DNA from: Bacteroides sp. ET71
GTDB taxonomy: Bacteria > Bacteroidota > Bacteroidia > Bacteroidales > Bacteroidaceae
DNA length: 64,000 nt
Assembly (NCBI RefSeq): GCF_023336905.1
Contig: NZ_JAMBLS010000013.1
Location: forward strand, 18,139 to 82,138
Direction: 5' to 3'
The notes under the pieces were generated by a model. It saw only the letters and a program-made list of their open reading frames with translations. It ran no database searches and had not been told where the DNA came from. This document shows, piece by piece, positions 79 through 63,806 of this stretch (the first letter of the stretch is position 1; each line of letters opens with the position of its first letter). The position numbers were made by a program, and so were the translations under genes.

Positions 79-111
79 TTGGTATTATAGAGAATAATCA
101 GTGTGATAACA

Positions 112-156
112 TACGCCTAAACCTCGCTGAAAGGTCGGTTAGTAACCAAACATTAT
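112..156 (+). repeat. Intergenic cassette element, copy 1
   Basis: The stretch contains CTGAAAGGTCGGTTAG followed by ACCAAACATTAT. It matches the element at 1144-1197, which has CTGAAAAGGTTGGTTAG followed by ACCAAACATTAT. Both lie between the stop of one AT-rich gene and the start of the next. More distant relatives occur between the genes at 43.0-46.4 kb. This looks like a cassette boundary or recombination sequence, not a promoter. Confidence 0.6.
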
Positions 157-1143: not shown

Positions 1144-1197
1144 TATAACAAGCGGTTTAACTTCCCCTGAAAAGGTTGGTTAGCCACCAAACATTAT
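1144..1197 (+). repeat. Intergenic cassette element, copy 2
   Basis: About 54 bases starting TAACAAGCGGTTTAACTTCC and ending in ACCAAACATTAT, filling the gap between the genes at 169-1134 and 1205-1684. It is near-identical in its second half to copy 1. Its first part (TAACAAGCGG) resembles the copies at 44.66 and 46.34 kb (TAACAAACGGC, TAACAAATGGC). Confidence 0.65.
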
Positions 1198-4439: not shown

Positions 4440-6002
4440 ATGGCGATACGAAAGAACACCAACCCACGGGCGATGGACCTGCAGCCGGAGATGCGCGACA
4501 TCCTGATGCGCAACGGTATGCAGGCCCATATCGTGCCTGACGGCGCAGGCTACAGCCTGGTCGTGCAGGGGCATGACTCGCCCCTGCTTGCCTATCCCAT
4601 CACGGAGCGGCAGATGCTGGCGCTGACCGACTGGGGAACGAACACGGCCAACAAGAAGGCCTACAACGTGTTTACCAGCATTGTCGGCAAGGACTTCTTC
4701 CTGCCCAAAGATTTCGTCCACGCGCGGAACGCCAACGGGCGTGTCGCTATGGGGCTTCACGGATACCGCATCGGCATCGGCGAATACGGGCGTACCGGCC
4801 GGATGGGTCTGCCGCCCCCGTTTCTCGGGTGGACACCCCGCCAGCAGTGGGGCTTCCACCTGCGCAGGGTCGGCGGCCAGCTGTTCTATCCCGGTCCCGT
4901 CGTCGCCGAACGCTGGGACGGACGGATGAAGCCGGGCGAACTCCAGTCCGGCGGCTACGGATTCTATTATAAAGGCGGTCAAAGGGAGATTGCGGCGCAA
5001 CCTGCGGATGTCTTGCAGAACCTGCAGAGCGTCATCACCCCGCTTGTCACCCGTGAGCGGAGCAGCGAGCCGGCCAAGCCCTACAAGGAACTGGTCAGCT
5101 CCCCCGTGTACTTCTCCAACGAGAAGTGGCAGGAATGCCTGTCCTCGCACGGCCTTATCGTGGACGCGGAGCAGCGGACGCTGACCGTGCAGTCGGAGTC
5201 CGTGGCGGCCGATTTCGTCTATGACCTGACGGCGGAAGAGACGGCGGCGCTGACCTCCAACTCCATCAAAGAACACCCGGTAGAGGAACGCATCGGTCTT
5301 ATCAACAACATCATCGCAGCGGACTACCGGGACAAGGTGACGATGGAAGCCCTGGACAGCGACCGGCGCATCGGCATCGGCCTGCACCCGGAGGTGGAGG
5401 AAGACCTTGCCCGGCAGCAGCAACAGGAGCAGCAGCTCTTTGAGGGTCAGCAGCAAGGCAACCCTATAGGACAGATGGCCGAAGGCGCCGTCATCGACGG
5501 CAGGGACCTCTATTATCTCAGCGAGAACCGGGGCTGGTACCGGGAAGAACGGCACGGACGCGAGGTGGAAGTAAGCGAAATCGCCGTCCATCCGGCAGAG
5601 ACCGAGGGCAAGTACAGGATGACCGCCGTCATCGACGGGCAGACCGTCAGCCACGAGATCAGCCAGAAGGACTATGACAAGTTCCTCGCCGTCGATGACT
5701 TCCACCGCATGAAGCTCTTCTCGAAGATATTCAGCGAGGTGGACATGAAGATGCGTCCCGAAGCCCAGAAGAGTCTCGGCGTGAAGATATTCGCCGCCCT
5801 GACAGCCGGAGCCGTCGTCACGGCCGGCGTCGTGCACGGGATGAACCACTGCCACCATGCGCCGGAGTTCTACGGCGAACGGTTCGGCGGTCCTCCCAGA
5901 CCTTATTTCAAGCCCGGAGTGGACACGCCGCGTGATGTGGCGATACGCAACTTCGAGGCCGAGATGAACCGGGAGATAAGCGACATGCGTATGGGGAGGT
6001 AG
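4440..6002 (+). CDS. Large conserved ICE protein with C-terminal membrane segment (520 aa)
   Basis: The start at 4440 (MAIRKNTNPRAM) was chosen over the in-frame 4260 start because the upstream 60 residues overlap the 74-aa gene in another frame and look like shadow sequence. The N-terminal ~230 residues form a globular domain rich in Gly, Arg and Trp. A Gln-rich linker (QQQQEQQLFEGQQQ) lies near residue 325. A hydrophobic stretch near residue 460 (FAALTAGAVVTAGVVHG) is a probable membrane segment, followed by a Pro/Arg-rich tail. Family not firmly identified; probable transfer accessory protein. Confidence 0.75.
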   Translation: MAIRKNTNPRAMDLQPEMRDILMRNGMQAHIVPDGAGYSLVVQGHDSPLLAYPITERQMLALTDWGTNTANKKAYNVFTSIVGKDFFLPKDFVHARNANGRVAMGLHGYRIGIGEYGRTGRMGLPPPFLGWTPRQQWGFHLRRVGGQLFYPGPVVAERWDGRMKPGELQSGGYGFYYKGGQREIAAQPADVLQNLQSVITPLVTRERSSEPAKPYKELVSSPVYFSNEKWQECLSSHGLIVDAEQRTLTVQSESVAADFVYDLTAEETAALTSNSIKEHPVEERIGLINNIIAADYRDKVTMEALDSDRRIGIGLHPEVEEDLARQQQQEQQLFEGQQQGNPIGQMAEGAVIDGRDLYYLSENRGWYREERHGREVEVSEIAVHPAETEGKYRMTAVIDGQTVSHEISQKDYDKFLAVDDFHRMKLFSKIFSEVDMKMRPEAQKSLGVKIFAALTAGAVVTAGVVHGMNHCHHAPEFYGERFGGPPRPYFKPGVDTPRDVAIRNFEAEMNREISDMRMGR

Positions 6003-11110: not shown

Positions 11111-12907
11111 ATGGAAGGAATAAAGCATAGCAGACAGTTTGCGGAGACGGAATCCCTCATGGACAACTATTTCGTCTGCCACATTGCCCCTGTCATGAAA
11201 CAGACGCAGGCGTACCTGAACGAGAAACAGGGCGAGGAGATGATGGAATACTCCACCTCCCTCGGCGGCATACTCAGCATGATGGCGACGGCGGGCCAGC
11301 CGCTGGGCGACCCCTACCAGACCCTCAAGGTCACGGGGGAATGGAACTCGAAAACCACCGAGGACTACATCGCGATGTGCCGGGAGAGAATCGTCTCGTC
11401 CGAGGAGATGCAGCAGGACCTTGCCTGCATCGCCGGACAGTGGCGTCGTGCCGCCGTGCAGGAAATCGGCAGGGAGCGTTATGACGAGCTCTCGGAGAAA
11501 CTGGGGTGCGACCTTGCCTATGCCTATGTGGACTACCGCATGGAGCAGCTGATGATAGACAGGCTGGTCAGGGAACGGATGCCCAAATCGTCCGCAGAAT
11601 ACATCATCCGCAAGGCGGCGGAGTCGAGCCTGCTGGGTCTGCCGCAGGTGCTGGGCCGTTCGCCGCTTGCCGAGGAGATAGAAGCCCGCGGCGAGGCCGC
11701 CTACCGTCCGGGCAAGGCGGAGAAAGGCGCTGCCTGGGCATTGGGAGCTACTGCGGATACCGTCATGCTGGGCGGCGCGGGGTCGTGGGCGACATTCGCC
11801 AAGTTCATCGGGGCGGACGCCGCCGTCTCCACCGTCGTCGGGTATCTCGAAAAGGACAAGCCGGAAGGCCCCACAGTGGAGGCGTGCATCAGCAAGGGCG
11901 TGTTCGGCATCGACGGCAATGTCTTCGACACTTTCCGGAAGGAAGCCGCCGCCATCCCTCCCAAAGAAAACGGCGCCCTTGCCGAAGCGAATAATGTACT
12001 GCACAAGAAAATACCCGTGTGCGAGTTCGACTTCACAAAGTGGATGCAGGTGGGAAACGCGCAATGGTGGCCCGATTTCGGGACGTCCGTCCATGACCGG
12101 GAAGAAAAATACAAGGACGTGCCGCTGATTGTGGCCCCCGGCCAGGAAGAAGCCTACCTGCGGGAGCTGGAAAGGCAGAAAGCGGAGGAAAAAGACGGGC
12201 AGGCTGCAGTGCAGGAGGAACAGAGGGAAGAAAACAGGACGGAGCCACAGGTCCAAAGTCGCGGCGGAGAAGAAACTGCGACTGTCGGACAGGAGAATCC
12301 ATCTGCATCAGCCGGCCCAAGCAACGAAAACGGCTGGGACGGACTGCTGCGTTCGGTGGGACTGGACGGGCTGGGCGACATCACCGGCAACCTCGGCTAC
12401 ATCATGGCGATGCTTCCGGACATCCTGCTGGGCGCCTTCACGGGAAAGACCCAATCCCTGCGCCTGAAGGACAACCTGCTGCCGATGGCGAGCATCGTGG
12501 CGGGCCTGTTTGTCCGGAATCCGCTGCTTAAGATGCTCCTTATCGGCCTGGGCGGGGCGAACCTGCTGAACAAGGCCGGGCATGAGGCACTGGAACGCAA
12601 GCGGTCGGAAGGACTAACCGCCGGAAACCGGGAACCGGAGTACAAGCGTTATCCCGACGAACCGCTCAATCCCCGCATCGTGAACCCGACGCTGCAAGGC
12701 TGCACGCTGGTGGCCACGATAGACCGTGTGCCGTGCACCGTCCAGCTCAGTCCGGTGGTGGCCGACGCCTACAGGAAAGGCGCCCTGCCGCTGAACACGC
12801 TGGCCAACGCCGTGCTTGCCCAGAGCGACCGGCTGAACCAGATGGCTTCACAGAACTACGACAACAGCCGTCCGGAAACCGTCGTGCGCACACGGGGCAT
12901 CCAATAA
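11111..12907 (+). CDS. Large transfer-region protein with hydrophobic core (598 aa)
   Basis: 598 residues. The N-terminal ~200 residues are helical. Hydrophobic patches occur near residue 220 and again between ~420 and ~495 (LGYIMAMLPDILLGAF, LLPMASIVAGLFV, LLKMLLIGLGGANLL), consistent with membrane association. A charged linker rich in Glu/Gln lies around residues 350-400. The C-terminal ~85 residues form a separate small domain (CTLVATIDRVPCTVQLSPVV). No family recognised with confidence; context makes it a conjugation accessory protein. Confidence 0.72.
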   Translation: MEGIKHSRQFAETESLMDNYFVCHIAPVMKQTQAYLNEKQGEEMMEYSTSLGGILSMMATAGQPLGDPYQTLKVTGEWNSKTTEDYIAMCRERIVSSEEMQQDLACIAGQWRRAAVQEIGRERYDELSEKLGCDLAYAYVDYRMEQLMIDRLVRERMPKSSAEYIIRKAAESSLLGLPQVLGRSPLAEEIEARGEAAYRPGKAEKGAAWALGATADTVMLGGAGSWATFAKFIGADAAVSTVVGYLEKDKPEGPTVEACISKGVFGIDGNVFDTFRKEAAAIPPKENGALAEANNVLHKKIPVCEFDFTKWMQVGNAQWWPDFGTSVHDREEKYKDVPLIVAPGQEEAYLRELERQKAEEKDGQAAVQEEQREENRTEPQVQSRGGEETATVGQENPSASAGPSNENGWDGLLRSVGLDGLGDITGNLGYIMAMLPDILLGAFTGKTQSLRLKDNLLPMASIVAGLFVRNPLLKMLLIGLGGANLLNKAGHEALERKRSEGLTAGNREPEYKRYPDEPLNPRIVNPTLQGCTLVATIDRVPCTVQLSPVVADAYRKGALPLNTLANAVLAQSDRLNQMASQNYDNSRPETVVRTRGIQ

Positions 12908-12932: not shown

Positions 12933-15236
12933 ATGAAAGAGAAATCACCCATAGAGAAAAATGCCGAGAAGAAGCAGACAGACCTGCTCTCCGAAGCCCT
13001 GAACGGAGCCTCGAACGCGAACGGGTACTGGCTGAACGCCTCCGGCAAAGGCTATCCCAAGTTCTATCCGCGCGGCGTGGCCGTCAGTCCGTTCAACGCC
13101 CTTTTCATGGGCCTGCATTCCGACAGGAACGGATGCAACTCGAACCTTTTCGTCCTCTACAACGACGCCAAGGCGATGGGCATGTCCGTCCGGGAACATG
13201 AGCGCGGCGTGCCTTTCCTTTTCTACAACTGGAACAGGTACATCAACAGGAACAATCCGGAGGAGATCATCAGCCGCACGGCCTATCTCGAACTGGACGA
13301 AAAAGAGCGGAAACAGTACAAGGGCGTGCATAACCGGGAGGTACGCACCCTTTTCAACATAGACCAGACCACCCTGCCGGATGCGGACAGGGAATCCTAT
13401 GCCGCCGCACTGAGGCAGTACGGCGGCACGGCGGGAAGGGGCTATACGGAAGCGGACAACCGCAAGCTGCATATCCGGTTCAATGATTTCCTGCTGAAGA
13501 TGAAGGAGAACCTCGTACCTGTGCGCTACGACGGCAGCGGAATGCCCCATTACGAGACGGACAGGGATGCCGTCTATATGCCCCGCCAGCGGGATTTCGA
13601 GCATTACCACGACTACCTGCAGGAGACCCTGCGGCAGATAGTCAGCGCCACCGGGCACCAGCAGCGCCTGGCGCGAGAAGGCATGGTGATGAAAAACGGC
13701 ATTCCACCCTCGGATGACGCGCTGAAACAAGAACGGCTGGTCGTGGAAGTGGCTTCGGGCATCAAGATGCTGGAACTCGGGCTGCCTGCCAGACTGTCGG
13801 AAGAAAGCCTGAAGACGGTGGAATACTGGGACCGCGAGTTTCGTGAGAACCCGTTCATGATGGCGGCGCTCGAAAGCGACGTGAACAACGCCCTTGAGGT
13901 GATCCGCAAGGCGGAACGCGGCGAGAAGATTGAATACGCCACCATCCGCAACCGGAAACAGACCTCCGACATGAGGGCGGAGCTTCCGAAACACCATGCC
14001 ATTGCGGACGAGATAGCCCGTCATCCGGACAAGGACAAAAAGACCATTGTCGTGGTCAGGGACAGGGCCGCGAAAACGGCGGACGTGATCCTGCCGGCCG
14101 GCGCATCGCTGGAAGTGGACAACGAGGTGCCCGGAATGAACAAGAACCGCATCGAGAGAGCCCTGCGCAAAGAGGGATTCGGGCAGATAAAGTTCTTCAA
14201 CCCGGACGGGGCGTTGGGCTTCAGACCCGACGACAGCTATTTTTCCGGCAAGGAGGTTTCCCTGGCCCGGCTGAAGAACTGGGAGATGCAGGAACTCTCC
14301 ACGCTGGATGTGGCTCCTGCGGTGAAGCGGGCCGGTGAGGTCAGCTTCGACCAGGTACAGATGATACAGGACGACAAGAACCGCTGGGCGCTCTACATCA
14401 AGCCGGAGAACGGGAGCGGCTACAGCGTCTATCCGGACAAAGAGGACGTGAACCGGTTCTTCTCCACGCTCAAGCAGGCGATGGACAACATTGGCAAAGT
14501 GCGCATGGAACTGGCGCACAAGTATCACGCCCTTGCGGAGACGAAACCCGACCTGAAGGTTGACCTGTTCAGTTGCGGGGTGAAGGACATCGACCTGAAC
14601 CGCATCCAGCGGGTCAGCGTGTTCAAGACGAAGAAAGACGGCATCCTGTGCGCGGCGACCATCGACGGGCGCAAGCCGGAGCCGAGAGCCGTCACGCAGC
14701 AGCAGTGGCAGCGGATGTGGCTTGCCGAGGACAAGGACGGGTACAAACGGAACCTGGCCGCCTCGCTCTTTTCCGATGTGATGCGGCAAGGACAGAGGCA
14801 GGGCAATGCCGTGGAAACGGCGGCATCGGCCGACAGGGAGCCGGAACAGAGGGAACAGGAACAAAGGAATATTGTTGACACATTATCGGAAGAATTTCTT
14901 TCGTATTGTAAGGACATCAAATCAAAACAGTCTGAAACCATTGTCCTGCTCAAGCACGAAGGACAATATTATTCTTATATGGACGATGCTGAAACCATTG
15001 CGCTTGAACTTAATATGAAGGTGCAGAAAGAAGACCGTCCGCCTTTTAATCCGCATAAGGTAATATCCGCTTTCGGACCGTACAGCGGAGAATCCGAACG
15101 CTGCATTTCGGAACTGGGAAAATCAAGGTTTCATATTACTGTCTTAGATACGGCCCAGAAACTCCAATCCAATATATCCGCAGACTCACGAACCGAAGAT
15201 TGTGACAACGGACATCAAATAACATTCAGAAGATAG
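12933..15236 (+). CDS. ArdC-N-like / DUF3945-like fusion with a MutS-I-like tail (767 aa)
   Basis: Residues ~25-110 (YPKFYPRGVAVSPFNALFM, NLFVLYNDAKAMGMSVREHE, GVPFLFYNWNRY) resemble the ssDNA-binding ArdC N-terminal domain. The middle and C-terminal parts have DUF3945-like signatures (RIERALRKEGFGQIKFFNPD, VTQQQWQRMWLAEDKDGYKR). From ~residue 650 base composition turns AT-rich, and the sequence (FLSYCKDIKSKQSETIVLLK, YYSYMDDAETIALELNM, CISELGKSRFHITVLD) resembles the MutS mismatch-recognition-side domain I fold. The tail looks like a later fusion. Likely role: protecting or handling incoming ssDNA; inferred. Confidence 0.72.
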   Translation: MKEKSPIEKNAEKKQTDLLSEALNGASNANGYWLNASGKGYPKFYPRGVAVSPFNALFMGLHSDRNGCNSNLFVLYNDAKAMGMSVREHERGVPFLFYNWNRYINRNNPEEIISRTAYLELDEKERKQYKGVHNREVRTLFNIDQTTLPDADRESYAAALRQYGGTAGRGYTEADNRKLHIRFNDFLLKMKENLVPVRYDGSGMPHYETDRDAVYMPRQRDFEHYHDYLQETLRQIVSATGHQQRLAREGMVMKNGIPPSDDALKQERLVVEVASGIKMLELGLPARLSEESLKTVEYWDREFRENPFMMAALESDVNNALEVIRKAERGEKIEYATIRNRKQTSDMRAELPKHHAIADEIARHPDKDKKTIVVVRDRAAKTADVILPAGASLEVDNEVPGMNKNRIERALRKEGFGQIKFFNPDGALGFRPDDSYFSGKEVSLARLKNWEMQELSTLDVAPAVKRAGEVSFDQVQMIQDDKNRWALYIKPENGSGYSVYPDKEDVNRFFSTLKQAMDNIGKVRMELAHKYHALAETKPDLKVDLFSCGVKDIDLNRIQRVSVFKTKKDGILCAATIDGRKPEPRAVTQQQWQRMWLAEDKDGYKRNLAASLFSDVMRQGQRQGNAVETAASADREPEQREQEQRNIVDTLSEEFLSYCKDIKSKQSETIVLLKHEGQYYSYMDDAETIALELNMKVQKEDRPPFNPHKVISAFGPYSGESERCISELGKSRFHITVLDTAQKLQSNISADSRTEDCDNGHQITFRR

Positions 15237-15240
15237 AGAC

Positions 15241-16752
15241 ATGAGCAAGAACCAAGAATACGCAGAGAAGTATGCCGAATATGCGATGTTACAGATGCGG
15301 CGGTACGGCATTCCCGCCTCCGTGACACTGGCGCAGGGCATACTTGAGAGCAGTAACGGCCAGAGCCAGCTGGCACGGAACGAGAACAACCACTTCGGCA
15401 TCAAGGCCACGCCGTCATGGATTGACGAAGGCGGACGGTACGCCCTGTATTCGGACGACAGGCCAAACGAGAAGTTCTGCAGCTATGATTCCGTGGGCGA
15501 CTCCTACGAGCACCACTCCCGTTTCCTGAAAGAAAACAGCCGCTATGCCGCCTGCTTCAATCTCTCGCCGGACGACTACAAGGGATGGACGGAAGGCATC
15601 GCCCGTGCCGGGTATGCCACGGGAAGCGGCTATGCCGCCAACCTACAGAAAATCATCGAGCAGAACGGCCTTGACAGATACGACCGTCAGGTCATGCAGG
15701 AAATGGCGGCACAGGGACGGCATTTCGGCGTGGAGGAAAACCCTTTGGGAGAATCTGAAAGCGCGGCCTATTCCTTTCCGGTCGAAAGGAAGGATTTCCT
15801 TTTTGTCACCACCCCGTTCGGCGTGGACGGCCGCACGGCCAACGGCGGCGGGAAAGTCCACAAGGGGCTGGACATCCGGTGTGACGAGGATGCCGTCCTC
15901 GCCACGGAAAACGGGGGCAAGGTCGTCTCCGTGAAAGGAAGCGGTGGCGGACAGTCCGTGACCGTGGAATACAGCCGGAAGGACGGCAGCAAGGTGCAGT
16001 GTACCTATATGCACCTCGGCGAAGTCTCCGTCAAGGCCGGGGATACTGTCAAGTCCGGGCAGCAGCTCGGAAAGACGGGCGGCGAACATCTGCATTTCGG
16101 GGTAAAAAACATCTATGCGGACGGCACGCAGCGGGACATCGACCCGGCGGCGTATCTGGCGGAAATCGCACAGAAAGGCGGCATCCGGCAGCAGGTGCTG
16201 CACAACGGCAACGACCTGCTTGCCAGATACAGGAGTACGGAAAGCGCCAGGGACGGGAAACCGCTCACCACCGAAGGATGGATGAAAAAGCTGCTCTCCT
16301 CGGAGGACAGCGGCGTGGGCCTGTCCGGATGCAGCGATCCTGTCGTGGAGATGGCCATGACCGCCTTCACCTCCCTGATGCTGCTGGCCGTGCAGATTGA
16401 CAATAAGGAGGAGGAAAGGCAGAAGGCGGAAGTGTCCGCCGCGATGGACAGCGGGAGAATCGACCTCAAGTCTCTGTTGCCGGGTATGAAAAGCTGCACC
16501 CTGACCGTCAACGAAAACGGCAAGGCCGTGCTTCATGCCGACAACGGAAACATGCAGATGTCGAGGGAGCTTTCCTCCGCCGAACTCAGCCGCCTGTCGG
16601 CCACGCTGAACAACAGTTCTCTCTCCGAAGAGACCAGGCGGATGCGCGTGAGCGGACTGCTCAACACGGTCATCCTCTCCGAGACGGCTTCCCGCAACTT
16701 CGAGATGGGAATGGAACAGCTGCAGGGACAGACAGAAGGACTGAAAAGATAG
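15241..16752 (+). CDS. Bifunctional cell-wall hydrolase: glucosaminidase plus M23 peptidase
   Basis: 503 residues. The N-terminal domain (residues ~8-150) is a FlgJ/LytG-type glucosaminidase: GIPASVTLAQGILESSNGQS with catalytic Glu, NNHFGIK, and CSYDSVGDSYEHHSRFL. Residues ~185-310 form an M23 domain: HKGLDIRCDEDAVLA, CTYMHLGEVSVKAGD, GGEHLHFGVK. The C-terminal ~120 residues are DUF3945-like (LLPGMKSCTLTVNENGKAVL). No signal peptide is visible, so export would need the transfer machinery. It would open peptidoglycan for the conjugation channel. Starts 4 bases after the previous stop. Confidence 0.87.
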   Translation: MSKNQEYAEKYAEYAMLQMRRYGIPASVTLAQGILESSNGQSQLARNENNHFGIKATPSWIDEGGRYALYSDDRPNEKFCSYDSVGDSYEHHSRFLKENSRYAACFNLSPDDYKGWTEGIARAGYATGSGYAANLQKIIEQNGLDRYDRQVMQEMAAQGRHFGVEENPLGESESAAYSFPVERKDFLFVTTPFGVDGRTANGGGKVHKGLDIRCDEDAVLATENGGKVVSVKGSGGGQSVTVEYSRKDGSKVQCTYMHLGEVSVKAGDTVKSGQQLGKTGGEHLHFGVKNIYADGTQRDIDPAAYLAEIAQKGGIRQQVLHNGNDLLARYRSTESARDGKPLTTEGWMKKLLSSEDSGVGLSGCSDPVVEMAMTAFTSLMLLAVQIDNKEEERQKAEVSAAMDSGRIDLKSLLPGMKSCTLTVNENGKAVLHADNGNMQMSRELSSAELSRLSATLNNSSLSEETRRMRVSGLLNTVILSETASRNFEMGMEQLQGQTEGLKR

Positions 16753-17017: not shown

Positions 17018-17635
17018 ATGATAAAATGCAATGTTACCCTATGCGGCACGATCAGCCGCGACGCCTCCGTCCGCACAGGCAAGGACGGCAAGGAGTTCGT
17101 AAGTTTTCCTCTCCAGGTCTCCATCCCCGGAAAGAACGGGAATGACGGGAACATGGAAGTCAGCGTCAGCAAAGACGGCGGACAGGACACCGTACATGAA
17201 TACCGGTACGGCTCCCGTGCCAAGGTCACGGGCACCCTTTTGCTGAAACGCAGGGGCGAGAAGCTCTATTTCAACCTGTCGGCGGATTCCGTGGATCTTT
17301 CCGATGCCGGGAACACGGATTTCGTCAAAGGGCAGATGGTCTTCCGTGGGAAGACCGGCAAGCACATAGAGGAACGCAAGGACAAGACTGGCAAGCCGTA
17401 CCTGATGTTCTCCGCATTCAGTACGGAAAAGGTCAATGACGGGTTCGAGTACCAATGGGTGCGCTTCTTCTGTTTCGGCAAGGAAAGGGAGGAATGGCTT
17501 CAGCCGGGTGTCAAGGTGGACGCGAAGGGAGAAATGTCCCTCTCCCTATACGACGGCAAGCCGGACATCTCCTGCCGTGTGGAAGAACTCAACCAGTATG
17601 TGCCGGAGGCCGGCAACGATAACGATAACAGATGA
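17018..17635 (+). CDS. SSB-like protein with two OB-fold units
   Basis: 205 residues from the preferred start at 17018 (MIKCNVTLCGTISRDASVRT); an upstream in-frame extension exists. The N-terminal half looks like an SSB OB-fold (GTISRDASVRTGKDGKEFVS ... RAKVTGTLLLKRRGEKLYF). The second half repeats the pattern (KTGKPYLMFSAFSTEKV, WVRFFCFGKEREEWLQPG, VDAKGEMSLSLYDGKPDI). It probably coats single-stranded transfer DNA. It overlaps the ArdC gene by 4 bases (ATGA), tying the two together. Confidence 0.72.
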   Translation: MIKCNVTLCGTISRDASVRTGKDGKEFVSFPLQVSIPGKNGNDGNMEVSVSKDGGQDTVHEYRYGSRAKVTGTLLLKRRGEKLYFNLSADSVDLSDAGNTDFVKGQMVFRGKTGKHIEERKDKTGKPYLMFSAFSTEKVNDGFEYQWVRFFCFGKEREEWLQPGVKVDAKGEMSLSLYDGKPDISCRVEELNQYVPEAGNDNDNR

Positions 17636-42351: not shown

Positions 42352-42984
42352 ATGGCAAAAGTAGGATACATATTCAAGGCTAATCACTATGACTCATACG
42401 AGGCCGATAAGGAGTGGATGCTGAATTTCGGCTGTGTACAGGTGATAGAGGAAGAGACTGACCATGAACTGATGCGTCCGCAATGGAAACAGCTCATGAA
42501 TGCCCTTGACCGGGGCGACGAGCTTGTGGTATCGAAGTTCAGCAACGCGGTTCGCGGGGTGCGTGAGCTTGCCGTCTGCATAGAGATGTGCAGGATCAAG
42601 GTCGTGCGCCTGATTTCCATCCATGACAGGATTGACAGCCGTAACGAGCTGTTCAAGGAGACTACGGCGGCAGAGGTTCTCGAAATGGTCGGAGCCCTCC
42701 CGGAAGAAATAGCCGCACTGCGGAAGTCTTCCAGCCATATCATGATGTTCCAGAAGAATATCAAGTCGCCGGCCAAGACGGAGAAAACTTTATCCAGGAC
42801 TGAGAGGGAAAGGACCATCGTGGACATGTATAACAACGGCTATTCCATCGACGACATTGCCAGCGTAAGCGGATTCAGCAGCAGGAGCTCGATATTCCGC
42901 ATACTGAACAAATACAATGTCGATTTGAACAGGGGCCGGACCAAAGGACCGAGACGAAAAAAGGGAACAGAGGAAACGGAATGA
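42352..42984 (+). CDS. Serine-recombinase-like protein without the catalytic serine (210 aa)
   Basis: 210 residues with the outline of a small resolvase: MAKVGYIFKANHYDSYEADK, a GDELVVSKFSNAVRGVRELA stretch, and a C-terminal HTH (YNNGYSIDDIASVSGFSSRS). In active resolvases the first beta strand ends in R-x-S-T with the nucleophilic Ser; here FKANHYDS replaces it, and the usual Asp-Arg motif in K-x-D-R is also changed. It may act as a DNA-binding regulator, not an enzyme. Own promoter carries the element-wide operator. Confidence 0.72.
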   Translation: MAKVGYIFKANHYDSYEADKEWMLNFGCVQVIEEETDHELMRPQWKQLMNALDRGDELVVSKFSNAVRGVRELAVCIEMCRIKVVRLISIHDRIDSRNELFKETTAAEVLEMVGALPEEIAALRKSSSHIMMFQKNIKSPAKTEKTLSRTERERTIVDMYNNGYSIDDIASVSGFSSRSSIFRILNKYNVDLNRGRTKGPRRKKGTEETE

Positions 42985-43036
42985 CATTCATTTCATTATT
43001 TACAGACATTACCGATAATAATTAAAACAAAGAAAT

Positions 43037-43579: not shown

Positions 43580-43640
43580 ACTGGTCTGTAACATGTAGCT
43601 GCTCCGTTTGACAGGGCAAGATATGATCCATTATCAACAT
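43580..43640 (+). repeat. Intergenic cassette element, divergent copy 3
   Basis: CTGTAACATGTAGCTGCTCCG then TTGACAGGGCAAGATATGAT. It has the size and position of the other elements but is weakly conserved (TAACATG-like start). Confidence 0.4.
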
Positions 43641-43655
43641 TCAAACAATAATAAT

Positions 43656-43991
43656 ATGAATCAAGAAGAGTTCCAATTATACAGAGACGAAATTGTCGAA
43701 TTAACTCATCTGCTGAAAGAAGAATGGATTGATTTGAAAGTGTTGCTACAAAGTTGCAATTTGGATGTAGAGCACGGCCTTCTAATAAATTATTATGAAG
43801 ATGAGTTTGATAATCAATATGGCTATTTCATTAATCCTGATGCCCAGCTTTTCTATTTTGAAATAGATAAAGACGAACATATAAAAGCTACACATAAGGA
43901 AATAGATGGCAGTATTGAAACAAGCTGTCCTCAATATGTTGTTGCTTTAGAGGAATTGAATAATCTTGCGAACAAACGGCGAACTGACTGA
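43656..43991 (+). CDS. Orphan immunity-type protein (111 aa)
   Basis: 111 residues from 43656 (MNQEEFQLYRDEIVELTHLL). Acidic, with a compact alpha/beta look (LLINYYEDEFDNQYGYFINP, LFYFEIDKDEHIK), as in SUKH-like or other small immunity proteins. No firm family. Ends at the next cassette element. Confidence 0.65.
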   Translation: MNQEEFQLYRDEIVELTHLLKEEWIDLKVLLQSCNLDVEHGLLINYYEDEFDNQYGYFINPDAQLFYFEIDKDEHIKATHKEIDGSIETSCPQYVVALEELNNLANKRRTD

Positions 43992-44022
43992 ATAGGCGGA
44001 ACGCTGCCGGACATTAGCAACC
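43985..44022 (+). repeat. Intergenic cassette element, copy 4
   Basis: CTGAATAGGCGGAACGCTG followed by CCGGACATTAGC. It shares GGCGGAACGCTG with copy 7 (46336) and closely matches copy 5 (44663). Confidence 0.55.
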
Positions 44023-44038
44023 CACAAATAAAAATGGT

Positions 44039-44656
44039 ATGACGACAAAAAAATATGCGGATTTTATAGAGAAACAGACACGAAGTATAATTAATGTCTC
44101 CGCTGAACCAATCTTTGGAGAATATATACTCCGAATCAATGGAAAGAAGATAGGTGTCTTGTATCAGAATCAGTGCTATCTCTTTCTTACCGACAAAGGG
44201 AAAGAGTTGTTGCCTGATGCAAAAGTCTGTCGTCCATATAAAAATCCGCCGGGAGAAAAGGATTTCATTTTAGTAGAAGATACGGCCAATAAGGAATTGC
44301 TTTGTTCTTTATTTAAAGCCATTTATGAGGATTTATATGCCGAGAAGGATTTAATCTATGATTTTTCTTCTATATTTTCTTTCAATAGTGGTTTCACAGA
44401 CGATATTGAAAGGGCATACGACGACTTTGTTGTCTTATTATCTTATTCTTGGGAGAATGGTTTCCTAAAAGAACGTCCGACAGACACAAAAGGAAGAATT
44501 ATAAAGTTTGAATTTCTTAGGAGGGATTTAACTGATGAAGGGAAAAAATACTTCTTTCCGTTCGGTCAAAAATTCATTTCATATACAGACCGGACGCAAA
44601 AGACACCTTCTGAGAAACTGATGAGTAAATGGCTGAACGAGGTAAAAAACAAATAA
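44039..44656 (+). CDS. TfoX-N-like orphan immunity-type protein (205 aa)
   Basis: 205 residues. The N-terminal ~110 residues (FGEYILRINGKKIGVLYQNQ, YLFLTDKGKELLPDAKVC, CSLFKAIYEDL) resemble the TfoX N-terminal domain. The C-terminal half is a separate helical region. In this array setting it is more likely cargo or immunity than a competence regulator. Bounded by cassette elements on both sides. Confidence 0.68.
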   Translation: MTTKKYADFIEKQTRSIINVSAEPIFGEYILRINGKKIGVLYQNQCYLFLTDKGKELLPDAKVCRPYKNPPGEKDFILVEDTANKELLCSLFKAIYEDLYAEKDLIYDFSSIFSFNSGFTDDIERAYDDFVVLLSYSWENGFLKERPTDTKGRIIKFEFLRRDLTDEGKKYFFPFGQKFISYTDRTQKTPSEKLMSKWLNEVKNK

Positions 44657-44662
44657 AATTGG

Positions 44663-44713
44663 TCGCTAACAAACGGCAGTACCAACTGAACAGGTAGAAC
44701 GCTGGAGAACATT
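44663..44713 (+). repeat. Intergenic cassette element, copy 5
   Basis: Contains TAACAAACGGCAGTACC, CTGAACAGGTAGAACGCTGG and AGAACATTC. It is nearly the same as copy 7 (46336-46384). The TAACAA..CGGC start is reminiscent of integron attC ends, but no second half with a matching inverted end is seen. Confidence 0.62.
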
Positions 44714-44717
44714 CAGT

Positions 44718-45686
44718 ATGATATATATTCGTAAACAAACATCACAGGAAATTGAAGATATAACCTTGATGCAAGGTGAATCTATACAATTATTTGGCAA
44801 GCAGGGTTATACTGTGAGTCAATTGCAGTCCATTAATAAATTGCTTGAAATGAATGATTGCACGATCTGTATTGATTGTGATTTAGGGACAAGTAATGAA
44901 AATGAAGACTTGATACATAATCTCAGTGTTATTGAATTTTTGAGTAATGTACGGCATTTGCTTGTCTCCAACTTCCCGTATAAAGCAGAATTGGATTCCA
45001 TCGACTTTGTTCAATATACTCCATTACTGCAAAGTCTTTCAATTTTAGGTCTGGTCAAGAGAAGCATATCATTGCAACCCCTGCAGAAATTGAAGGTCTT
45101 AGATACTCTTAATTTCGGGAACTATTTGGACATAACGAAAAAACAGCTTTCCGTCATCAATGGTTTACCAAATCTTAAAGAATTGAAAGTCAATAAAATT
45201 GATGCGTCGGGCCTGAATCCTAACCTCAATATGAGGAAGTTATCCATATTCTCCAGACTGATAAACGGCGAGTGTTTGCCTGACAAATTCCCGAATTTGG
45301 AATATCTGTATCTAAAAAGACAGACGAAATGCTCGGACTTTTCGTGGATTTCCAAGCTGGTTAATCTGAAAAAACTTTATCTGCACTGGACTTTCAGTCT
45401 TGAAACCTTGCCGGACTTGTCAAAACTGAGTAACTTGGAACTGCTGGAGTTGACAGGCTGTCCTAATCTGCGCTATGGTATTGACAGTATCAGCTCTCTT
45501 CCGAATTTGCAGCGCTTTGTTGCAACGGAGCTGACATGTCTGACAACCGAAGAACTGGAAAGATCATTATCTCATTTGAAAACCTTGAAATCCGTTTATA
45601 TTTATTATAGGAATAATAATGCGGAGAACAGGGCAATGGAAAAGTTAATGGAAAAGTATAATTGGGTGAGTCATCCCAACACATAA
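44718..45686 (+). CDS. Leucine-rich-repeat orphan immunity-type protein (322 aa)
   Basis: 322 residues. From ~residue 105 on, repeats of the LRR type are visible (LQSLSILGLVKRSISLQPL, LPNLKELKVNKIDASGLNPN, FPNLEYLYLKRQTK, LVNLKKLYLHWTFSLETLP, LSNLELLELTGCPNL). LRR proteins of this kind occur among immunity proteins of contact-dependent toxins in Bacteroidetes. Starts 5 bases after cassette copy 5. Confidence 0.72.
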   Translation: MIYIRKQTSQEIEDITLMQGESIQLFGKQGYTVSQLQSINKLLEMNDCTICIDCDLGTSNENEDLIHNLSVIEFLSNVRHLLVSNFPYKAELDSIDFVQYTPLLQSLSILGLVKRSISLQPLQKLKVLDTLNFGNYLDITKKQLSVINGLPNLKELKVNKIDASGLNPNLNMRKLSIFSRLINGECLPDKFPNLEYLYLKRQTKCSDFSWISKLVNLKKLYLHWTFSLETLPDLSKLSNLELLELTGCPNLRYGIDSISSLPNLQRFVATELTCLTTEELERSLSHLKTLKSVYIYYRNNNAENRAMEKLMEKYNWVSHPNT

Positions 45687-45689
45687 AGG

Positions 45690-45735
45690 TACATAACATG
45701 CGGCTCAACCTCTTCTGAAAAAGACCGATATGAAC
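45690..45735 (+). repeat. Intergenic cassette element, copy 6
   Basis: ATAACATGCGGCTCAACC then TCTTCTGAAAAAGACCG. The CTGAAAA block matches copies 1 and 2, and TAACATGCGGC matches the front of copies 2, 5 and 7. Confidence 0.5.
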
Positions 45736-45775
45736 AAAGATGCATAAAAAAAAGAATTAGACAAATAGATAGGAA

Positions 45776-46318
45776 ATGAAAACGATAAAAGAATTGCTTG
45801 ATGTGGCCATATCCATTGAAGATGAATTGAAGGATGCACAGTTTAAACCCCAATTAGGTGTGTCTATAGATTTCTCCAAAGGTGTGCCTACTCTTGAAAA
45901 TGGGGTTTACCGTAAGCCTTCGCCAATGCTGAAGGAAAGATTTGAGGCATTCGGGAAATGGGTCAACGCTACTCATGGTGACTGGCTTGATACGAAAGAA
46001 ATGGAAAGCCTTTGGAACGAAAGTGCAGAGGATGAACGGCTGTCTGGGATTGCTGGAAGTGTAAAAGCTTCAATGGGTAATTGGGAAGACCATGCAACCG
46101 GGCTATTTGCACTACACAGGATTTCCATTTTTGCCGCAAGCGATAACAGTTATGAAATGATTTGTCTAATCTGGTTTGACGGCACAGTTGAACCTGAATT
46201 ATGGGTGTATGATTCTAATGGCGAAAGTCGATATAAAGACTTAGCTTCTTACCTGCAGGCATATATAGATGACGATGTTTCTGCTTGCTCCGTAAAATGG
46301 AAATTAGCCGAAATGTAA
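45776..46318 (+). CDS. Orphan immunity-type protein, SUKH-like look (180 aa)
   Basis: 180 residues, acidic, aromatic-rich (NWEDHATGLFALHRISIFAA, EMICLIWFDGTVEPELWVYD). The regular strand pattern and size resemble SUKH/SMI1-type immunity proteins, but the match is weak. It lies between cassette copies 6 and 7. Confidence 0.65.
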   Translation: MKTIKELLDVAISIEDELKDAQFKPQLGVSIDFSKGVPTLENGVYRKPSPMLKERFEAFGKWVNATHGDWLDTKEMESLWNESAEDERLSGIAGSVKASMGNWEDHATGLFALHRISIFAASDNSYEMICLIWFDGTVEPELWVYDSNGESRYKDLASYLQAYIDDDVSACSVKWKLAEM

Positions 46319-46335
46319 TTCTTTTATTAATGTGA

Positions 46336-46384
46336 TATTAACAAATGGCAGTGCGACTGGACAGGCGGAACGCTGGAGAACAAT
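46336..46384 (+). repeat. Intergenic cassette element, copy 7
   Basis: TAACAAATGGCAGTGCGACT, GGACAGGCGGAACGCTGG, AGAACAATAT. It aligns almost base for base with copy 5. Confidence 0.62.
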
Positions 46385-46407
46385 ATACACTCTAAAAAGC
46401 AAAAGAA

Positions 46408-46803
46408 ATGAACAACAATGATTTCATAAACTATTTGAAACACACTCTGCATAATGCAGGAGATGGGTTGATTCGTCAGATTAAAATTAATTTGGCAGAA
46501 TGCCAAATCATTTTGGAACTATCAGTAGAAAGTCCAGATGGGTGGCTTAACCTTGAAATCATTGCAGAAAACATATCGGAATTTACTATAAGACAAAAAC
46601 GAAATGAAGATTTACAGATCATCTTTAATATGGATATACAATGCATTGATGGTCTATATTGGTTCAATTTAGACTGTGTAGGCTCAGAGAACGACACAGA
46701 TCAAATCCGTACATCCAGTTTCTATTTTGTATGTAAAACTTTTAATGTTAGTTTCTTGCCCTATCGAGAGAGAAGCGACGGAACAGGAACAGTTCTTACA
46801 TAA
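46408..46803 (+). CDS. Orphan immunity-type protein (131 aa)
   Basis: 131 residues, soluble alpha/beta-looking (QIKINLAECQIILELSVESP, LDCVGSENDTDQIRTS). No family recognised. Last gene of the array, followed by a bidirectional terminator. Confidence 0.65.
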   Translation: MNNNDFINYLKHTLHNAGDGLIRQIKINLAECQIILELSVESPDGWLNLEIIAENISEFTIRQKRNEDLQIIFNMDIQCIDGLYWFNLDCVGSENDTDQIRTSSFYFVCKTFNVSFLPYRERSDGTGTVLT

Positions 46804-59983: not shown

Positions 59984-61099
59984 TCAGCCCTTTCTTGTCA
60001 ATGTGATTTTGGTGGTCGCCTTACGCTTGTTGCTGTCGACTACTTTCATGTAGCGTTGAGTGGTAGTGATGCTCTTGTGCGCCATGTTGCTTTGGATAGT
60101 ACGGATATCAGTACCGGCTGCGGCTTGAAGAGTTGCGTATGTCCTGCGGTATGAGTGGAAAGTTATGTTTTTGGTAATTCCGGCAGAACGGATCCATTCC
60201 TTCATAGGCTGCTGCGTCCAGCTCCGCTTCAGGCCTTTGAACACAAGACCTTTTTTCTCGGGACTGTAACCGATCAGTTCCAAGGCTTCATCGCTTATCG
60301 GGATGATGTCCTCGGTCTTGGTCTTCTGGGTGATGGTATGGACGCATTTTCCTCCAGCTGCAAAGTCAACGATTTCCTCCCAGCAAAGGGAAAGTATATC
60401 ACTGAGCCGCAAACTGGTCAGGCACGAAAAGAGGGAAGCAGTCTTTAGAACAGGTATCTTGCACGGAGTTTCAGCCAGGCAATACAGCTCTTCCACACTC
60501 AGGTATTCCTTGGCAACATCTTCTGGTTCGATTTTTTCCAGAAAGTCATTGACATTGGTCTTTATCATCCTGTTGCGGTACAGAATCTTCAGGAATCCAC
60601 GGAAAGTGGACCAGTAGCCGGAAGCGGAGTTCCTTGATATCTGTCCGTCACGCCGGAGTTGCTTTGCGTTAAGCAGGTATTCCCGGAACTTGTTGCACAG
60701 GTCCACATCTATTTCTTCGAAAGTGCATTTGCCGTGAACGAAGTTGTAGAAGTGCTGATAGACAAATCCCCATTTCTGGTCGTGCTTGCGGAGCTGCTTC
60801 CGGTAATACTCCAGAAAGTCCGCTTTGAACTTGCGTTTGTCGAAGAAATCATACCGCTCATTAACGATGGCTTCAAACCTCCGGCACCGGATTGCTTCGG
60901 CCTTTTCCGACATGGCAGCGTTGAAGTCGCGTTCACGCTGATTCTTGGGATTGGCATAGATGTAAATGTTCAGTCCTTCATGGCGGATGGTCTTCATTGT
61001 TTCCTGATCCCGGTAGCCCGGATAATAATCAAGGTAGAAAGATAACATCCCTTTCTTCAATGGACGTGTTCTCAGTGTTACTGTTTTGCATTCTGACAT
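59984..61099 (-). CDS. Tyrosine recombinase / integrase
   Basis: 371 residues from 61099 (MSECKTVTLRTRPLKKGMLS). Catalytic residues are visible: CLTSLRLSDILSLCW (Arg I), ITQKTKTEDIIPI (Lys), TFHSYRRTYATLQAAAG (HxxR), and MAHKSITTTQRYMKV (His, nucleophile Tyr). The N-terminal half has arm- and core-binding regions. Closest gene to mnmE among recombinases, so probably the integrase of the element whose right end is near 62.1-62.4 kb. Confidence 0.87.
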   Translation of the reverse strand: MSECKTVTLRTRPLKKGMLSFYLDYYPGYRDQETMKTIRHEGLNIYIYANPKNQRERDFNAAMSEKAEAIRCRRFEAIVNERYDFFDKRKFKADFLEYYRKQLRKHDQKWGFVYQHFYNFVHGKCTFEEIDVDLCNKFREYLLNAKQLRRDGQISRNSASGYWSTFRGFLKILYRNRMIKTNVNDFLEKIEPEDVAKEYLSVEELYCLAETPCKIPVLKTASLFSCLTSLRLSDILSLCWEEIVDFAAGGKCVHTITQKTKTEDIIPISDEALELIGYSPEKKGLVFKGLKRSWTQQPMKEWIRSAGITKNITFHSYRRTYATLQAAAGTDIRTIQSNMAHKSITTTQRYMKVVDSNKRKATTKITLTRKG

Positions 61100-61160
61100 A
61101 ATGTTGAATATTAAATGGTTGTAACTGATTTTTGCTGCGAAAATCCTTAATGCTTTTATA

Positions 61161-61189
61161 CAGACCATAATCAGCAGGAAATAATTTTC
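61161..61189. repeat. 29-base direct repeat, right copy
   Basis: CAGACCATAATCAGCAG followed by GAAATAATTTTC, matching 59004-59032 at 24 of 29 positions. It lies upstream of the integrase start and could be a recombinase or excisionase arm site. Confidence 0.5.
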
Positions 61190-62366: not shown

Positions 62367-63770
62367 TCACTTCCCTATGCAAAAATGCTTGAAAATATTT
62401 TCAAGTACAGCATCTGTAGTTACTTCTCCCACAATGTCAGAAAGGTGGAAAATACATTCTCGAAGATCTTGAGAAATGAGATCGTTAGGAAGATTGATAG
62501 AAATTCCTTTTTGTACGCGATGGATTGATTTTAGGGCATGAGTGAGTGCTTCATAGTGACGAATATTGGTAACAATTATGTTTCTATGTGTGATTTCGGG
62601 TAGATTAACTATGGTGACAAGAAGTGACAGGAGTCGATCTATTGAGATTTTTTGCTTAGCAGACACTGTTACTATATTAGATTGAGGAATAAGAGTTTGA
62701 GTGATTTTTTCAGGTAGGTGGACGGGGATATTAGAAACCAAGTCACATTTATTCAGCACTAGGATAATTTGTTTGTTGGCAAGGTGGGATTGAATTTTTT
62801 GATAAAAAATATAAAAGTCATCAGAAGGACGTTGCAGGTCATACATGAGAATAACAATTTTAGCTTGTTTAAGAGCTTTAAAACTTCGCTCAATACCTAA
62901 TGTCTCAATTGCATCATCCGTTTGGCGTATGCCAGCCGTATCAATGAAACGGAAAGTAATTCCTTGAATGTTTATTGTATCTTCTATAATGTCACGAGTG
63001 GTCCCATGGATATTGCTTACAATAGAGCGTTCGTCTCCTACTAGTGCATTAAGAAGGGTGGATTTCCCTGTATTTGTATCGCCTATAATAGCAACTGGAA
63101 TGCCATTCTTAATAGCATTTCCTGTGCTGAATGATTCTACTAAATGGTTAATGAGACTTTCAATTTGAGCAGCTAATATTTGTAATTCAGAACGATTTGC
63201 AAATTCTAAGTCCTCATGGTCTGAAAAATCTAATTCTAGCTCCATAAGTGAAGTTAGGTGTAATAATTGATTTCTTAATTTGCCTAATTCACGGCTGAGC
63301 TCACCTCTCATCTGGTTTAGAGCAAGGTGGTGTGCTGCTTCAGATGTAGAAGCAATAAGATCGGCTACAGCTTCAGCTTGGCTCAAATCCATTTTTCCAT
63401 TTAGAAAAGCTCGTTGTGTATATTCACCGGCTTTTGCGGAACGGCATCCTTGATCGATTAGTAGTTGCATTATCTTTTGGAGAATATACGGCGATCCATG
63501 ACAAGAGATTTCTGTAGAATCCTCACCAGTATATGAGTGTGGGGCATGAAAAAGGCTCACAAGAACCTCATCAACTATTTCTTTTTGCTCATCTACAATT
63601 TCTCCGAATGTTAAAGTATAAGGTTTTCGTTCGGTTAATGGAACAGGTGAAGCAGTGGAAACAAAAATGCGATTAGTAATAGTAATAGCATCAGGTCCTG
63701 ATACACGAATAATCCCAATAGCTCCACCAGGAGCTGTTGCAATAGCACAAATGGTATCTTGTATATACAT
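62367..63770 (-). CDS. mnmE: tRNA modification GTPase MnmE
   Basis: 467 residues from the ATG at 63770. N-terminal tetrahydrofolate-binding domain (DTICAIATAPGGAIGIIRVS), G domain with IGDTNTGKSTLLNALVGDE (G1), DTAG (G3) and LNKCD (G4), and the invariant C-terminal FCIGK with the Cys needed for activity. With MnmG it modifies the wobble uridine of several tRNAs. AT-rich chromosomal gene, complete at its 3' end. Confidence 0.95.
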   Translation of the reverse strand: MYIQDTICAIATAPGGAIGIIRVSGPDAITITNRIFVSTASPVPLTERKPYTLTFGEIVDEQKEIVDEVLVSLFHAPHSYTGEDSTEISCHGSPYILQKIMQLLIDQGCRSAKAGEYTQRAFLNGKMDLSQAEAVADLIASTSEAAHHLALNQMRGELSRELGKLRNQLLHLTSLMELELDFSDHEDLEFANRSELQILAAQIESLINHLVESFSTGNAIKNGIPVAIIGDTNTGKSTLLNALVGDERSIVSNIHGTTRDIIEDTINIQGITFRFIDTAGIRQTDDAIETLGIERSFKALKQAKIVILMYDLQRPSDDFYIFYQKIQSHLANKQIILVLNKCDLVSNIPVHLPEKITQTLIPQSNIVTVSAKQKISIDRLLSLLVTIVNLPEITHRNIIVTNIRHYEALTHALKSIHRVQKGISINLPNDLISQDLRECIFHLSDIVGEVTTDAVLENIFKHFCIGK

Positions 63771-63806
63771 AATCAAATAAATAATTTAACGTGAGTTCGA
63801 TATAAT

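Follow-up and report, generated by a model that had tools for sequence, protein, structure and literature searches.

Two gene arrays with a common intergenic element

The window, i.e., the whole stretch of 64,000 nucleotides that was analyzed, covers positions 18,139-82,138 (forward strand) of contig NZ_JAMBLS010000013.1 (C13 in the following) of Bacteroides sp. ET71 (GCF_023336905.1). It contains two gene arrays interspersed with copies of an intergenic element, which is interpreted below as the putative recombination site of gene cassettes. Both arrays are carried by an integrative element that adjoins mnmE (62367-63776) and also encodes an ArdC/zincin protein. An earlier note on this DNA had pointed to a repeated intergenic sequence at 43.6-46.4 kb and to two relatives at the far left of the window. 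All seven copies were located again, two of them being degenerate, all on the plus strand and in the same orientation as the genes, and the two relatives proved to be elements of a second array (Table 1). The copies at about 44.66 kb and 46.34 kb, described in the note as nearly identical, match at 84% across ~45 bases (E = 1.7e-6, genome-wide).

Two models of the element were used. Model R1 (from A2) is based on nine copies, six from contig C13 and three from a Phocaeicola plasmid, while R2 was built from 18 sequences including the copy at 1146-1196 and excluding that at 107-155. A search of the whole 3.63-Mb genome with R1 gave 14 matches at E ≤ 1, all on contigs C13 or C23, so that within the host genome the element is confined to these arrays. 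The degenerate copies at 43589 and 45694 were missed by R1 at E ≤ 5 and by R2 at E ≤ 1; the former is backed by homology of the cassette to one from another genome (locus L044), the latter by its 5' half alone. The right array begins with a half-site, not listed in the note, continues with five elements and ends with a cassette devoid of its own element. As to the gene labels given in the note, the leucine-rich-repeat protein was confirmed, while the labels YwqG-like, TfoX-N-like and SUKH-like had to be rejected for the window proteins, none of which gave a corresponding Pfam match over cut-off. A relative of the gene at 45776-46318 (L044:7003-7521) yielded a sub-threshold SUKH match (E = 0.11).

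Table 1. Array features and recombinase-like genes in the window (positions are those of the window).
Feature	Position	Strand	Evidence and remarks
attC-like element, left array	107..155	+	R2 43.6 bits (outside R2 training set)
Cassette gene, left array, 321 aa	169..1134	+	92% nt identical cassette in L045/L050/L051
attC-like element, left array	1146..1196	+	R2 61.7 bits (R2 training copy)
Last gene of left array, 159 aa	1205..1684	+	no following element seen
Serine resolvase-like gene ahead of right array	42352..42984	+	Resolvase, E 7.2e-8
3' half-site CAGACATTA, right half of element only, TTA at 43009-43011; right array begins here	43003..43011	+	homology with L044 cassette starts at 43003
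Cassette 1 gene, 180 aa	43037..43579	+	no Pfam family over cut-off; 69% nt identity (669 columns) to L044 cassette
attC-like element of cassette 1, degenerate, TAACATGTAG...GATCCATTA	43589..43633	+	missed by R1 and R2
Cassette 2 gene, 111 aa (ATG at 43656)	43656..43991	+	no Pfam family
attC-like element of cassette 2, 5' end overlapping gene end	43970..44016	+	R1 67.1 bits (R1 training copy); outer pairs CGGC/GCTG
Cassette 3 gene, 205 aa	44039..44656	+	no Pfam family; 80.5% nt identity to L046 cassette from 44011; boundary ACATTA
attC-like element of cassette 3	44667..44714	+	R1 59.7 bits (R1 training copy)
Cassette 4 gene, leucine-rich-repeat protein, 322 aa	44718..45686	+	LRR_4, E 3.2e-7
attC-like element of cassette 4, good 5' half, decayed 3' half	~45694..45744	+	missed by R1 and R2
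Cassette 5 gene, 180 aa	45776..46318	+	no Pfam family; 78.8% nt identity to L044 cassette
attC-like element of cassette 5	46339..46385	+	R1 59.2 bits (R1 training copy)
Cassette 6 gene, 131 aa, own element missing	46408..46803	+	homology to L050 (element follows there) ends at 46774
Integrase of the integrative element carrying both arrays	59984..61168	-	Phage_integrase 5.5e-19 and Arm-DNA-bind_5

The left array starts on the same contig to the left of the window (region L010) and includes genes for Imm42, DUF6678 and Imm51 proteins. In this region, a stretch of 222 bp with a partial element at its end (L010:13696-13917) is repeated with 92% identity within the array (L010:17326-17546), and positions ~17250-17320 resemble the start of the gene at window position 1684, perhaps as an insertion scar. 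No cassette recombinase gene lies beside either array: tblastn with both recombinase classes introduced below in the window and L010 found exclusively the integrase of the integrative element itself.

Probable exchange and complementary ends of the cassettes

Elsewhere in the host genome, on contig C23, over 20 such genes form an array directly behind a tyrosine recombinase gene, which is the only class I recombinase gene of the genome. Searching with the recombinase led to 24 named loci in Bacteroides, Phocaeicola, Mediterranea, Parabacteroides, Paraprevotella, Marseilla and one Muribaculaceae bacterium, some of which end early at contig ends. Among 149 genomes of the host genus, 23 encode a relative at E ≤ 1e-60, these relatives forming two classes (~743-792 and ~367-389 bits) alongside partial or more distant matches, while 5 of 393 genomes of the order match at E ≤ 1e-100. 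Models R1 and R2 match 8 and 15, respectively, of 301 genomes sampled from the host family, the own genome counted. Scanning of viral contigs for the exact element pattern gave no match, and the recombinase search of these contigs returned a single locus (L218). A Phocaeicola massiliensis plasmid (L009), of which 13.3 of 46.3 kb were read, carries another array, and no recombinase gene is present in that part. AT-rich genes likewise follow class II recombinases in the eight loci read, where the hairpin is of another type and the cassette ends are the same. Class II arrays (L113-L119, L079) have stronger hairpins (e.g., GCAGGAT AACGG...CCGTT CCCTGC) and follow the same rule at their cassette ends; several copies of the class II recombinase occur per genome, four in G726.

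Three checks proposed in the earlier note were carried out in closely equivalent form, and the first two turned out positively. A profile comprising nine copies, three of them among the seven listed in the note, detects the element in other arrays, and different genes reside between its copies. Moreover, individual cassettes recur in different order across species, in many cases with more than 95% identity, and are also duplicated within one array. Relatives of cassettes 1 and 5, which are separated by three other cassettes in the window, are neighbors in L044. The same locus contains near-identical duplicates of whole cassettes (643-2038 and 11310-12704; 4510-5267 and 15026-15783), and in Paraprevotella clara a transposase-like gene that we take to be IS91-like is located between the recombinase gene and the first cassettes (L046:1856-3076).

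Cassette boundaries were derived from 27 pairs of cassettes that are at least 80% alike, 26 of which were used for the left and 21 for the right end (identical neighbors or unequal lengths were omitted). Counted from the last base of CATTA, identity at the left end amounts to 290/598 at positions -30 to -8 vs. 497/520 at +1 to +20, and at the right end to 780/798 before vs. 183/420 after CATTA. The switch in identity at CATTA implies that the element moves with the upstream gene up to this point, and that the bases beyond belong to the next gene. The boundaries lie at one point even where elements of different sequence class meet and at the attI-like site described below. Thus, the first cassette of the right array starts at CAGACATTACCGAT in the window, directly at the attI-like site in B. 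propionicigenes (L058; homology starting at 43006), and after an element in L044. Elements are compact, mostly 44-53 nt; the ATG follows CATTA at a median distance of 22 nt, and the stop codon precedes TAAC by 7 nt. Among 193 cassettes from 15 loci, 174 contain a single open reading frame (ORF) of at least 60 aa on the plus strand, 16 contain two, one contains three and two contain none. A cassette has the form TTA-nnnnnnn-gene-nnnnnnn-TAACAA-hairpin-CA.

The bases with which a cassette starts after ATTA are complementary to those that precede TAAC at the end of the same cassette. This was established in two sets of matches obtained with an element finder that has a background of ~1 match per 20 kb per strand (2 + 2 in 38.4 kb of array-free window). 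Set 1 consists of 124 of 149 matches, from which 25 located inside genes or outside arrays had been removed by eye. For offsets 1-7, complementary bases were found in 93, 92, 86, 94, 85, 76 and 57 of its 108 cassettes compared with shuffled means of 29-53; beyond these offsets agreement falls to about chance. When two bases were considered jointly, 86/108 agreed within a cassette vs. 22/124 within one element (shuffled mean 19.3). Set 2, from which nothing was removed, covers 20 of the 24 named loci (three represent genomes already used and one is cut by a contig end) and gave 97, 92, 94, 97, 92, 86 and 60 of 107 cassettes for the same offsets. The flanks of a single element show near-chance complementarity in both sets. 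In class II arrays, 43, 40, 44, 46 and 40 of 49 cassettes agree at offsets 1-5 (shuffled means 13-21); as the class II finder demanded a hairpin, the hairpins of this class are no evidence while its cassette ends are. Within the window itself the rule holds less well, with agreement at 4, 5, 5 and 3 of 7 bases across the right array and at 6 of 7 for the cassette on the left, values which are in line with decay of arrays that have no recombinase. Complementary ends are a feature of integron cassettes, too, and would be expected of a site that forms anew once a cassette is circular. Their complementarity enables the two n7 stretches of a circular cassette to pair as an R-box of ~10 bp beside the short hairpin with its one unpaired base.

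With regard to their cargo, the arrays resemble those reportedly described in 2019 by Ross as recombinase-associated acquired interbacterial defense (rAID). Pfam matches were listed for 25 of the 45 families found with 105 cassette proteins, and among these are SUKH (6), ankyrin (5), Imm51 (3) and DUF1963 (2) as well as Imm9, Imm19, Imm43 and DUF4284 (one each), so that the interpretation as a defense cluster offered in the earlier note fits arrays of the rAID type with relatives of SUKH, Imm9, Imm19, Imm43 and Imm51. A tyrosine recombinase upstream of at least two co-directional genes with less than 41% GC is present in the C23 array and in loci L043 and L045; the arrays of the window have no such recombinase beside them. 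The definition of rAID as a tyrosine recombinase with co-oriented orphan immunity genes and conserved intergenic motifs is given in a 2025 preprint, which also describes rAID biogenesis as an area of active research and the route to two related genes in one array as not yet clear (PMC12247911). The arrays studied here agree with rAID in having a tyrosine recombinase, co-oriented AT-rich genes of ~100-300 codons, immunity families including SUKH and a conserved intergenic motif; they differ in the explanation given here for the motif, a recombination site, and in the occurrence of recombinase-less arrays on mobile elements. The recombinase that defines rAID is that of B. fragilis NCTC 9343 (BF9343_RS08045). 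In the literature searched, we found no reading of rAID as an integron, and Ross et al. (2019) may already make the comparison.

The attI-like site, the recombinase and pairing within the element

Directly after the stop codon of the recombinase gene, a site of the form AACA(G/A)C...(G/C)CTG...(G/A)TT(A/C) is present in 26 of 28 loci, a count that includes three genomes twice (23 of 25 distinct loci), and is followed by different cassettes, which are joined at its TTA and appear to have been inserted there, as cassettes are at the integron attI site. It shares the core letters TAAC and TTA with the element. Immediately before TT, 20 of the 26 sites carry G and 6 carry A, as against A in 248 of 251 elements, where the finder favors A. 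Each site thus seems to keep its own base, which places the crossover inside TTA, as with G^TT in integrons. A first element was found in 18 of the 23 distinct loci, and in 14 of these 5-7 of the 7 bases at the ends of the first cassette agree.

The recombinase has Phage_integrase and SAM-like domains, preceded in class I by an N-terminal extension (residues 1-90; L045:6966-7235) that has no Pfam match and is a candidate for the role played in integron integrases (IntI) by the I2 domain. A structure model was poor (mean pLDDT, i.e., predicted local distance difference test, 54.1; 5 rows) and was not used; of the chain, only residues ~10-80 of the extension, at 74-88, were modeled with moderate confidence. 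The two class I proteins searched match the integron integrase family TIGR02249 in two stretches with 204-207 bits (cut-off 265), and alignment to IntI4 likewise falls into two stretches that flank a missing insertion. The spacing between GKGxKDR and HxLRH is 58-59 residues in all 28 class I and II proteins compared with 100 in 12/12 IntI and 58-66 in 11 XerC/XerD proteins. A C-terminal [STN]P[LVIFA][DE] motif occurs in 28/28 rAID-type recombinases, 12/12 IntI and 8/8 XerA-like proteins from Bacteroidia vs. 0/11 XerC/XerD. In a phylogenetic tree, for which 12 of the 28 IntI rows kept from 30 loci were used, with no sequence read through or repaired, XerC/D are placed on one side (100/99), classes I and II group together (100/99), and IntI form a third group (100/100), the mutual order of which is not settled; a firm phylogenetic assignment to IntI was therefore rejected. 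Canonical IntI scoring over the cut-off are encoded in 105 of 395 genomes of the phylum and are absent from the host genome. Recombinases from other Bacteroidia (L212 and L213, both on the reverse strand; 405 and 370 aa) resemble these in lacking I2 and in their SPLD-like end, and the genes after them are separated by longer palindromic intergenic stretches similar in appearance to canonical attC, several of them with ends of the CGTTA type.

Pairing within the element was studied on 66 of the 251 elements, less than 85% alike. In the outer stem (positions 8-12 with -11 to -15), 207/330 pairs are of the Watson-Crick type vs. 150.6 ± 6.4 after shuffling, and in the inner stem (14-17 with -16 to -19) 155/264 vs. 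111.2 ± 6.4, provided that base 13 is left unpaired. Without this extrahelical base the inner stem drops to 92/264 vs. 90, i.e., chance, and slid registers are near chance. The identity of base 13 varies (A 8, T 4, C 4 and G 4 in the 20 best-paired elements), and in folds of single sequences bulges lie on the 5' arm in 17 cases and on the 3' arm in 4. Covariation scored 0.473 vs. 0.232 for shuffled sequences, a figure that leans towards structure because its 18 elements had been picked for pairing well. The left half of the element (TAACAA followed by a stem with an extra base in the 5' arm) resembles attC of the Vibrio cholerae type. The earlier note had seen only half of an attC-like site; the second half exists as well, consisting of the 3' arm together with an R-box that has its partner at the opposite end of the same cassette.

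An integron-like interpretation and its alternatives

Comparison of the sequences makes it very probable that the element is a cassette-borne recombination site, analogous to attC, of an integron-like system. A tyrosine recombinase related to integron integrases would join cassettes inside TTA, the partners being either the attI-like site just past the recombinase stop codon or other elements, and its substrate may be the folded bottom strand of a circular cassette. With the crossover on the 3' side of the element, the bottom strand would be expected if a single strand is used, as in integrons, where the crossover lies on the 3' side of the attC bottom strand (PMC4792948). The system shares with integrons the tyrosine recombinase, an attI-like site by its gene and mostly single-ORF cassettes (174/193), each ending in its own site, which stays with the upstream gene. 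Further common features are paired R- and L-boxes (R'/R'' and L'/L'') with an extrahelical base, indicated here by covariation and complementary cassette ends in spite of weak single folds, and the crossover at the 3' side of the site. In attC, the extrahelical base is located on the same arm as in the element. The suggestion of the earlier note that the repeat may be the exchange site of gene cassettes thus gains support from the junctions, the shared and reordered cassettes and the attC-like pairing, and its comparison of the TAACAA...CGGC front with attC is likewise supported.

Several points weigh against this interpretation. Neither excision nor a cassette circle was observed. The ~42-residue insertion holding I2, which integron integrases use for folded attC, is absent from all 28 recombinases, the N-terminal extension of ~90 residues being a further difference, and both recombinases tested miss the TIGR02249 cut-off. 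The tree leaves the kinship unsettled (p-AU 0.172 for a clade of rAID-type recombinases with IntI and 0.249 for one with Xer), and long branches were flagged. The elements end in CATTA while integron sites carry GTT, and the GTT/AAC triplet is not common to both sites (GTT in 20/26 attI-like sites, ATTA in the elements). Further differences from integrons are the compact sites, the longer complementary ends (TAA plus 7), the position of the attI-like site after the stop codon and the cassettes co-directional with the recombinase gene. At the attI-like site, 4 of 18 loci show agreement between the ends of the first cassette at no more than 2-4 of 7 bases; in some of these the first element may have been missed. 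Because the finder is anchored on TAAC and CATTA, these letters are partly invariant by design, and matches were removed by eye from set 1. Single elements fold weakly (mean z -1.23; 15/66 at p ≤ 0.05), and window copies folded singly do no better than shuffles, so that single-strand folding energy was discarded as proof. It takes a comparison across the family to reveal the structure, which is claimed on the basis of covariation. The fold check proposed in the earlier note thus gave attC-like pairing including an extrahelical base, in the exact register only, with the qualification that single window copies fold like shuffles. Finally, both window arrays are partly decayed and without an adjoining recombinase, the recombinase-headed platform being located on C23. 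Since its recombinases fall short of IntI and its elements do not carry GTT, the system is classified as integron-like and not as an integron.

The same cassettes could be moved on double-stranded sites, in the manner of Xer or other simple tyrosine recombinases, with the hairpin representing the two recombinase arms. The weak single-strand folds and the missing I2 insertion, which XerC/D likewise lack (PMC4792948), agree with such a mechanism; we nevertheless judge it unlikely, since the arm spacing varies, with loop lengths differing by at least 3 nt between elements, stems covary across unrelated sequence classes around an extrahelical base that stays in register while its identity changes, and the cassette-specific complementary ends have no obvious role in double-stranded DNA. 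Xer recombinases are likewise simple tyrosine recombinases without I2, and CTXphi makes use of a folded single-stranded site (PMC4792948); the present system differs from Xer/CTXphi in its dedicated recombinase, its many cassettes and sites with extrahelical bases. General homologous recombination between intergenic repeats, which would shuffle genes without a site-specific enzyme, could account for similar elements and for cassettes common to several arrays. It is very improbable in view of boundaries at a single point, even between element classes and at the attI-like site, and leaves the rule of inverted ends unexplained.

It is highly improbable that the element is a conserved RNA feature, i.e., a terminator, processing site or leader between co-oriented genes, even though it forms a hairpin and is co-oriented with the genes (94 finder matches on the plus vs. 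4 on the minus strand in five arrays). The element travels with the upstream gene as far as CATTA and the remainder with the downstream gene, the core letters TAAC/TTA are common to the attI-like site, and an Rfam search of three arrays (L044, L046, L040) gave nothing at the gathering score, a sub-threshold Flavo-1 hit being the sole match at E ≤ 1. A secondary role as RNA could exist beside recombination. Next to no probability is attached to movement of the window arrays by the serine resolvase-like gene, although it is the first gene of the operon-like run of the right array. It was rejected as the cassette enzyme and regarded as a backbone gene of the mobile element. Its relatives reside on plasmids without such arrays, where the finder gave isolated matches at background rate, none was seen heading the left array, and the same cassettes follow a tyrosine recombinase elsewhere.

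Under the integron-like interpretation, the window arrays correspond to clusters of attC sites lacking integron integrases (CALIN): both contain at least two cassette sites and no adjoining recombinase gene, as does the part of plasmid L009 that was read, with the difference that the sites are not canonical attC. For CALIN, off-target insertion, loss of the integrase and separation from the integrase have been put forward as origins (PMC8618304); for the window arrays, off-target insertion or separation from a platform is the probable origin. The recombinase encoded on C23 could serve them in trans, and recombinase-less arrays in general would be either served in this way or frozen. For Bacteroidetes, the description of IntegronFinder 2.0 mentions that an earlier study had only In0 and that a complete integron is now found in Salinibacter (PMC9024848).

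Extrahelical bases have been tied to the I2 domain, and their origin has been called a chicken-egg paradox (PMC4792948); sites with extrahelical bases paired with a recombinase devoid of I2 bear directly on this aspect of integron evolution. Tentatively, gut Bacteroidales may harbor a lineage of integron-like platforms in which an I2-less recombinase acts on folded cassette sites with an extrahelical base. If so, this lineage would represent a living intermediate, or an independent solution, in the evolution of I2 and folded attC, cassette-specific R-boxes that are complementary only in the circle would favor capture over loss, and the main cargo of the platforms would be immunity genes against rival bacteria. 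The findings offer a concrete and testable mechanism for the gain and reordering of immunity genes in rAID arrays and suggest that gut Bacteroidales run an integron-like system on cargo conferring immunity to type VI secretion systems, canonical IntI not being found in the host genome. Much like the integrons by which antibiotic resistance genes are gathered elsewhere, the arrays would line up, as exchangeable cassettes, genes that presumably protect their hosts from rival bacteria.

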